From the NCBI GenBank assembly GCA_027625915.1, contig JANTQA010000047.1:2232001-2296000 (forward strand): DNA of 64,000 bases, read 5' to 3'. This DNA is from Anaeramoeba flamelloides (taxonomy: Eukaryota > Metamonada > Anaeramoebidae). Positions within the stretch are counted from its first letter, which is position 1. Each line of letters starts with the position of its first letter. Of this stretch, positions 3,001-44,193 are shown one piece after another. A program made the translations under genes and the position numbers. Under the pieces are notes generated by a model, which had not been told where the DNA came from, did no database searches, and saw only the letters and a list, made by a program, of their open reading frames with translations.

Positions 3001-6000
3001 AAACAATTAATTTTTTTAAAAAATAGTATAATTAAATTAAAAATTGATTTAATTCTTTATTTAATGAATTTTAAAAACATTAATTTACAAATATATTTAA
3101 TAAATTTAATCAAAAATAATACTAATTTAATAAAAAAAATAAGCAAAAATGAGAAAATTAAAAATCTTTTTTTAATGATTTTAATTGAACAATTGTTAAT
3201 AATTAAAAATAAAGAAAATAAAATTTTATTAAATGAATTTATTAAATCGATAATAAATAATAATCAATTAATTTCACATGAAAATAATAGTAATAAAGAG
3301 AACAATAAAGAAAAAGTAAGCCAAAATGAAAATGAAAAAGAATTGGCAGAAGATTATAAATTAATAATAAAAAAAAATCAAAAAAATTATAATAATTGGG
3401 AAAAGCAAAATTTAAATAATTATGAAAATTATTTTAAAGAATTAAAATTCGTAAAAAATGATTATTTGATTAATAAAAAACAATTAATTACCTTTATTAA
3501 ATTAAAAATTAAAGAATTAACTAATTATTTATTTGAAAGACAAAATAAATTCCATAAAGTTGAAATTAAAAGAATATATTTAAAAAATAAATTGAAAAAT
3601 AAAATTTCAAATCATTGGAAAAAGATAATTAAGGTGATGGAACAAGAAAGAGCATTATTTTATCAAAAATCAAAAGTAATTCTGTATATTATAGATTCCA
3701 CAGAAGGGCCAAATAGGATTAGAAAAAGATTGAAAAAAAAAAAAATAAATAAAAATAAAGATTTAAAGACTAATTGGATCAAATTTAATAATTTACATTT
3801 TTACACACAAGATAAAGAAATAATTCATTTAGACAAAATAAAAAATGCTAAAAAATATAAAAAAATTGCTAATAATAATTATTCCTTTTTAAATAATAAT
3901 TATTATTACAAAAAGAATGAAATTGAAGATAACAATAATAAAAATAAGAATAATAATAAGAATAAGAATAAAAATAAGAATATTCTGTATATCCAACATA
4001 ACAAAAAGAAAAAGAAAAATACAAATTTAAATATTCATTCAATAAATCTATTAAAAGAAATATTAAATAATAACAACAATAACAACAATAACGGAAGTTC
4101 AGAAGTGCATCAATATATTTCAGACATCAAAAAAATTCAAATAGAACCATTTTTATGTTCACAAATTGTTAATTTTGAAGAAATAACTGGTGAATTAATT
4201 TTTGGAGAAAAATATTTACATTTTTTTAAAAATAATTTCCAATATGATAAAAAAGAACACAAAAAATATAAATATAATCAAATTAACTTCATATTAAAAC
4301 AAAGATTTTTATTAAAAAATATCGCTTTAGAATTCTTTTTATCAAATGGAAGTACTTTAATTTTCATTTTTAAAACAACCTACGAAAGAGAGAATTGTTA
4401 TAAATATTTACGAAAAAAGAATTTAAAATTAAAATTTTTTGATGAAAATCAAATTACAAATTACTTTTATCAAAATTATACTTTAAAATGGATTAATAAT
4501 GAAATGAGCAATTTTGAATATCTCATTTGGATCAATACTTTTTCTGGGAGGAGTTATAATGATTTAGCCGAATATTTAATATTTCCACAAATATTATCGA
4601 ACTATTCCTCCAATAAAATTGATTTAAATGATCACAAAAATTATAGAAATTTATCCAAACCGGTAATTTTTTTTTTTTTTTTTTTTAATTTTTGATTTAT
4701 TTTTAAAATCTGTTTTGGTTAAGGGGTGAGTAAAATAAAAAAATCTTCAAGTAAATTTAATAAGCAAATTCAAAAAAAAAATTACCGCATCTTGAAATTG
4801 AAAAATGAAGTAAAAACCTGATAACTACAAAATCAAACTTACCTTTTTAAAGCTATTTCCCGAAATGAATTATTGTTTTTTTCGAGTTTGATCCATTTTT
4901 CTCATTTTTAAAAAGTTTCAAAATTCTACATATTTCTGAATTATTTAAAACAAAAATATTTTTCTTTGAATGAAGAAAGAAATTTATGTTCTATAAAGGG
5001 GGTGTACAAAAATACACTTTAAAAATGAAACCACGAAAATTATAAAATTAACCGAGTTTAAAAAATCTACTTAATTTCAAAAAAAAATACAATAATTATT
5101 TGAAACTTAAAAAACAATAATTTTTTGATTCAAAGAACAGTTATAATCAATTTTTTCTTTTTATTGAAGAAAAAAATATGAGAAAAAAAAACCGAACAAT
5201 CAAATTAAAAATTCCCCCAAAACACTTTTTTCAAACCTTGGAAAATTCAACTTCTAATCTAAAGAAATACTTTTTAATTTGATTATTTATTTTATCAAGA
5301 ATTAATAACCCAATATTAATTTTTTCAGTTAGTTGTTAGTAATAACCCAAAGATTAAATGTGTCAAATTACCTAACAATTATTTCTCAATTTTTTAAATA
5401 TTTTCAAACAAATAAAACTAATTCAAATTAATAAATCTAATAATAAAAAAAATAATAGATATTATCAAATAACTGATTTTAAAACTAAACAGTTTATTGT
5501 TTATACTCTGAATATTTGAAAAAGAAATATTACTTGATCTTTTCAATTTCAAGAAATGTAGGAAATATTTGTGAATAAAATAAATGATCAATTTTTTTCG
5601 ATCTTCAAGGATTCAATATTTGATTTATTTTTATTGTATTTTTAAAATAAGATTAAAGTTTCAAGGTTATTTGATCATACAAACTCTCAGAATTTACTAA
5701 AAGTGAGATTTCTTCAAAATAAAATTTTTTGCAAATTTTTCTTTTTCTAATTTGATCCAAAAATTCCAAACAAAAAAGGGATCAGATCTTTTGACTGAAA
5801 ATTTCATTGGGAAAAATGAACTCTTATAAAAATGATAATTCATCTCTCTAAAGTTGATAAATGAAGTTGCATATTGGGTTTAATTGTATCCATGTGTAAA
5901 TGATTACTTGATTACCTTTAGAAAAAATAAATAAATAAGAGTTACTAGTCCCTTAAAGTGATCCAAATTTTTCATTAAAAAATATCAATTCTTCTTTATA

Positions 6001-44193: not shown

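Follow-up and report, generated by a model that had tools for sequence, protein, structure and literature searches.

Mobile elements and two intron size classes in a 64-kb window and in gene copies of Anaeramoeba flamelloides

Genes and long introns of the window

The window, i.e. the whole analysed stretch of 64,000 nucleotides of Anaeramoeba flamelloides DNA, is part of contig C48 in a genome of 254 Mb in 76 contigs. Its GC content is 22%, compared with 23–24% in two sampled blocks of 100 kb. The identities of the BEACH, Rab and ankyrin-kinase genes, which harbor the four long introns, are Pfam assignments. The features are listed by window position; T1, T2 and T3 are repeat families.

1–4662, forward strand: upstream exon of the BEACH-WD40 gene, whose open frame enters from before the window start
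4663–9244, forward strand: long intron 1, 4582 nt, 76% repeat (GTAATT..TTTTAG)
4696–5957, forward strand: T1 element copy, about 1.26 kb, ending ..ACTAGTCCCTTAA (sample copies 73–86%)
6361–7340, forward strand: putative broken remains of a LINE-like reverse transcriptase (motifs by eye)
9245–11257, forward strand: downstream exon of the BEACH-WD40 gene (Pfam)
17692–19278, reverse strand: ankyrin-kinase exon 2 (Pfam and copy)
19279–24131, reverse strand: long intron 2, 4853 nt, 53% repeat (GTAATT..ATCTAG)
19478–19713, no strand assigned: T2 element, 236 nt, inverted ends CTGATAAATT, TA flanks (empty site in copy L039)
20726–21262, no strand assigned: T3 element, 537 nt, imperfect inverted ends (repeat comparison)
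24132–24245, reverse strand: ankyrin-kinase exon 1, 38 aa (89% identical copy on C57)
28005–29039, reverse strand: GAPDH coding frame including the stop, no intron (Pfam)
35716–36148, reverse strand: last Rab exon, 433 nt (Pfam)
36149–39958, reverse strand: long intron 3, 3810 nt, 54% repeat (GTAAAT..AAAAAG)
36383–36916, no strand assigned: T3 element copy, 92% identical to the T3 of intron 2 (repeat comparison)
39959–39984, reverse strand: Rab exon of 26 nt (kept in copy L038)
39985–40085, reverse strand: short Rab intron, 101 nt, no repeat (100 nt in L038)
40086–40100, reverse strand: Rab exon of 15 nt, DTAGQ (kept in L038)
40101–43747, reverse strand: long intron 4, 3647 nt, 56% repeat (GTAATC..AAATAG)
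41689–43464, reverse strand: T1 copy in pieces with a T2-family copy nested at about 42504–42740 (repeat comparison)
43748–43844, reverse strand: Rab exon of 97 nt (frame and splice ends)
43845–43959, reverse strand: short Rab intron, 115 nt, no repeat (129 nt in L038)
43960–44006, reverse strand: Rab exon containing GDSGVGKSN; neither its upstream boundary nor the first coding exon was located
48147–48717, forward strand: predicted Sec24-like intron, 571 nt, 52% repeat (297 nt in a copy on C24)

Each of the four long introns starts with GT and ends with AG at precisely the bases that an earlier note on this DNA had given, and the joins keep the frame and the continuity of the domains (the BEACH join reads SKP|MGCQT, by eye). 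The joins are backed by gene copies elsewhere in the genome, namely a Rab copy (L038) for all four intron sites of that gene, an ankyrin-kinase copy (L039) and three fetched BEACH copies (L029–L031), which break at the same residues as the window gene. The observation of the long introns is real and confirmed. In a two-strand gene prediction, the BEACH and ankyrin-kinase introns contain no extra exon; in the Rab gene, the predictor missed the very short exons and put in a single weak piece at 38905–39014 (score 11). This predictor, which superseded a one-strand version that had merged everything, still merged neighbouring genes, and its 29 intron lengths were not used in the statistics. A predicted intron at 293–418 was rejected because positions 1 to 4695 form an uninterrupted open frame.

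Element content of the long introns

Repeats were compared within a library of 264 kb, which consists of the window and two 100-kb blocks at round coordinates chosen before looking. Between 53 and 76% of the bases of the long introns (pooled 0.60), but only 0.43 of the window DNA outside the gene models, have a repeat partner, and all these fractions are lower bounds because the library is so small. The description of the long introns as loaded with mobile-element remains is thereby borne out. The accompanying claim that neighbouring introns of about 100 nt are clean holds for the two short Rab introns with a repeat cover of 0. Short introns are not immune, however, as the 571-nt Sec24 intron has a cover of 0.52.

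The 264 kb contain 11 clusters of T1, five of T2, ten of T3 and eight of T4, which roughly scales up to thousands of each genome-wide. Terminal inverted repeats are clear in T2, imperfect in T3 and present in part of the copies of T1, whose copies end in ACTAGTCCCTTAA. Much of the repeat in the long introns consists of short, MITE-like elements with inverted ends. MITEs are short non-autonomous DNA transposons with inverted ends, discrete insertion and many copies; the elements found here resemble them in their shortness, inverted ends, discrete insertion and many copies, and T2 also in its TA flank. The segment at 6361–7340 presumably represents the remains of a LINE-like reverse transcriptase, a reading based on motifs recognised by eye.

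Nested copies are found in the window (T2-family inside T1) and on C24 (T3 inside T1), and the identity of T3 copies ranges from 90–93% for the closest ones to 83–84% and about 70% for others. In the ankyrin-kinase copy L039 the intron measures 6557 nt versus 4853 nt in the window, both splice sites are kept, and both ends as well as some inner parts still align with intron 2. The 236-nt T2 element is absent from this otherwise aligned copy, which thus represents a near-exact empty site, with TA on both sides of the element in the window and TC in the copy. This one case shows that the T2 insertion in intron 2 came after the gene duplication. An intron of about 978 nt in a BEACH copy holds one element of about 710 nt, which is 87–93% identical to three others, and the intron of about 908 nt in L029 has no repeat match in the sample.

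Outside the long introns, the window contains a pair of inverted repeats (44731–44833 and 46859–46961) with 87% identity over 103 nt and arms 2025 nt apart, a dispersed 72-nt repeat near this pair in the 45-kb region that is also located at 54416 and 60862, and a perfect (AT)n array of 71 nt (34411–34481). A stop-free frame of 1344 aa on C24 (L022, about 1767–5801; C24:10031767–10035801) has 45% GC inside a block of 24% GC.

Intron lengths in gene copies across the genome

The length comparison covers eight gene families including the window genes, with 102 introns at 29 sites, and is a hand compilation from homology, not a census of all introns of the genome. The families searched were CCT, BEACH, DENN, kinesin, myosin and the tRNA synthetases (PF00133), and intron lengths are the gaps between consecutive matches of exon-by-exon searches. 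For CCT and BEACH, the lengths include a correction for residues that were missing or overlapped, whereas those of DENN, myosin, kinesin and the tRNA synthetases are raw gaps with an error of up to about 200 nt, as match ends may overlap. We left out 66 BEACH copies with a downstream match beginning at profile position 80–117 (gaps of 466–10212 nt), because the site differs among copies (L032 reads through). Also left out were three C-terminal BEACH rows, 39 of the 150 BEACH matches for which no partner was listed, CCT pairs with an exon missing between the matches, and single-copy sites. The value of L032 (1992) and a CCT site that depended on a correction of 60–73 residues were removed from the final sample, an ankyrin site was added, and one CCT length was entered as 218 (219 in the source).

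Two log-normal components describe the 102 lengths better than one (BIC 146.8 versus 189.3), and none of 200 bootstraps gained as much as observed; when each site contributes a single value, four of 300 did. The two length classes proposed for the window are therefore also found outside it. The modes lie at 198 and 2354 nt with a trough at about 400–800 nt, and the distribution is without a clean gap, since 44 introns are up to 600 nt long, 16 fall between 600 and 1500 nt and 42 lie above. Thirteen sites are short in every sampled copy, 14 are long and two are mixed, i.e. 27 of 29 are uniform. The intraclass correlation by site is 0.80 (0 of 2000 permutations), which makes length largely a property of the site. 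This persistence of class is partly common descent, because the copies are related. The proportions in the sample are not those of the genome, because the copies are related, only the best candidates were scored and too-short exons were missed. Lengths at long sites vary widely, from 1308 to 7278 nt in DENN and from 908 to 4582 nt in BEACH.

Class switches are seen at two sites. The CCT site VK|NPK (unpolarised) harbors introns of 219–309 nt without repeat in three copies and of 3954–4376 nt with a repeat fraction of 0.43–0.56 in two, and a kinesin site has 112–427 nt in three copies versus 2439 nt in one. These switches suggest that short introns can be hit by elements.

The most detailed comparison is provided by the Rab gene and its closest copy L038, in which the intron pattern of 115/3647/101/3810 nt in the window corresponds to 129/3271/100/3073 nt. 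The last exons of the two share 115 of 143 residues (80%) and differ at 11 of 37 four-fold sites. The longest alignment between the long introns measures 37 nt (low-complexity masked), and otherwise alignment is confined to splice-edge stretches, which are a few tens of bases long and joined to the exons; both short introns fall within aligned exon stretches. The long introns of L038 have repeat covers of 0.51 and 0.70. The younger T3 insertions postdate the Rab duplication, given that the closest T3 copies differ by 7–10% and the Rab pair at 11 of 37 four-fold sites. The exons of 15 and 26 nt, which are kept in L038, have the 101-nt intron between them and kilobase introns on either side.

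Many copies of the two large families are uninterrupted. The BEACH family is very large, with at least about 140 loci among the 150 matches listed, and so is the Ras/Rab family with at least 150 matches. In the search with the upstream BEACH exon, 149 of the 150 matches listed stop at query residue 183–186, which is also the end of the query, and exact sites can therefore be taken only from fetched pieces. One of these, L032, reads through the intron site of the window gene, and 33 of the 150 BEACH exon matches listed sit in a frame that runs through it. More than 100 of the 150 Ras/Rab matches listed span the whole domain in one piece (hand count), in a list ordered by score that favours uninterrupted copies. 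In both families many uninterrupted domains, some with identical scores, are scattered over the contigs, and they are possibly intronless duplicates.

Growth by insertion and alternative readings

The intron boundaries, the two-class lengths in the sample, the repeat content and the persistence of class in copies are direct observations. We consider it likely that they reflect spliceosomal introns of two size classes, of which the long ones have grown by self-feeding insertion of small mobile elements. Short introns of about 100–400 nt would have received zero or few insertions, and long introns of about 0.8–7 kb would have accumulated MITE-like non-autonomous DNA transposons and LINE-like remains. 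The MITE-like elements have inverted ends with TA or TTAA adjoining, and such targets should be abundant at about 77% AT. A first insertion would enlarge the target and make the next one likelier, so that sites might divide into never-hit and run-away ones. This feedback would be neutral, and the short introns would presumably be spliced by intron definition.

Introns of two size classes that are filled by mobile DNA are an ordinary, already known kind of genome architecture. For teleosts, Jakt et al. 2022 (PMC9438311) describe bimodal intron lengths with a short peak at about 76 bp and a trough near 256 bp, report that introns which are long in teleosts are long in mammals too, and find that the short-intron fraction tracks genome size. 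Two length classes are common to both systems, whereas the short mode here is about 200 nt, the trough lies at about 400–800 nt, and copies are compared within one AT-rich genome. In the border-induced selection model, as set out in the abstract of PMC9748784, neutral indel dynamics can lead to long introns and several modes without whole-intron function; that model builds on short indels together with conserved borders and short conserved stretches, whereas here whole elements insert. The available part of the study of Anaeramoeba nuclear genomes (PMC11550330) reports very AT-rich genomes, large gene-family expansions and a larger genome in A. flamelloides, and used read mapping with introns allowed to 10 kb. 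The composition of the window, the very large Ras/Rab and BEACH families and the low-complexity proteins agree with it, and that part of the text holds no intron-length distribution. A search of one literature library found no paper combining Anaeramoeba and intron length. The useful twist of the current system is a size class that is inherited in gene copies although the contents are replaced. With many intron sites, several copies of each, and short, long and switched states occurring together, neutral landfill versus a maintained state becomes measurable within one genome.

Long Rab introns of 3647/3810 versus 3271/3073 nt despite nearly unalignable sequences, a short site of 101 versus 100 nt and the uniform class of 27 of 29 sites would also be in accordance with a selected two-state architecture, in which some sites stay long for reasons of timing, splicing order or regulation, others stay short through a splicing constraint, and the elements are mere filler. 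However, the uniformity is partly common descent, two sites change class, the lengths at long DENN and BEACH sites range widely, and no Rfam family reached the gathering score anywhere in the window; we regard selection of this kind as unlikely. It is likewise doubtful that each site passes on its size class, with insertion-deletion balance or selection preserving the class while all of the sequence is exchanged, and that in addition the Rab exons of 15 and 26 nt and the 101-nt intron between them are initially recognised as a single 142-nt unit, through exon definition spanning the kilobase introns on either side, with the short intron removed separately. These two exons offer a test of intron versus exon definition.

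The earlier note had interpreted the long introns as tolerated landing zones. Long sites do mostly stay long in copies, and the repeat cover of 0.60 versus 0.43 in unmodelled window DNA would fit a special property, such as chromatin or insertion preference, that attracts elements to long introns and that short ones lack. The excess is moderate. Untranslated regions and exons that escaped recognition are probably part of the unmodelled DNA, and the CCT and kinesin switches suggest that short introns are accessible as well. Growth was modelled with insertion proportional to length, zero deletion, and start lengths and element sizes chosen by us. Among six rates, the best-fitting one, with an insertion per 200 bp, resulted in 50% short introns and a long median of 4.3 kb, compared with 42% and 2.75 kb observed. 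This growth-only model is rejected in detail (KS 0.19, p 0.001; 0.27–0.58 for the other five rates, which are worse). Nevertheless, growth by target size roughly yields two classes, so that no special tolerance is required, and we consider landing zones quite improbable. The idea that the long introns are gaps between misjoined genes or hide missed exons, for which the merging of GAPDH with Rab by the gene predictor could be cited, is largely refuted by the domain continuity across the joins and the recurrence of conserved GT-AG sites in copies, and its probability is minimal.

GAPDH had been put forward as the gene with the strongest codon bias and without a coding intron. The intron is indeed absent, but this is a poor argument of little weight, because many of the listed BEACH and Ras/Rab matches are also uninterrupted. 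Regarding the bias, GAPDH has the top GC3 value of 0.43 versus 0.20–0.30 in a comparison with four other genes that left out BEACH, but the short Rab exon has the lower effective codon number (33.6 versus 35.8).
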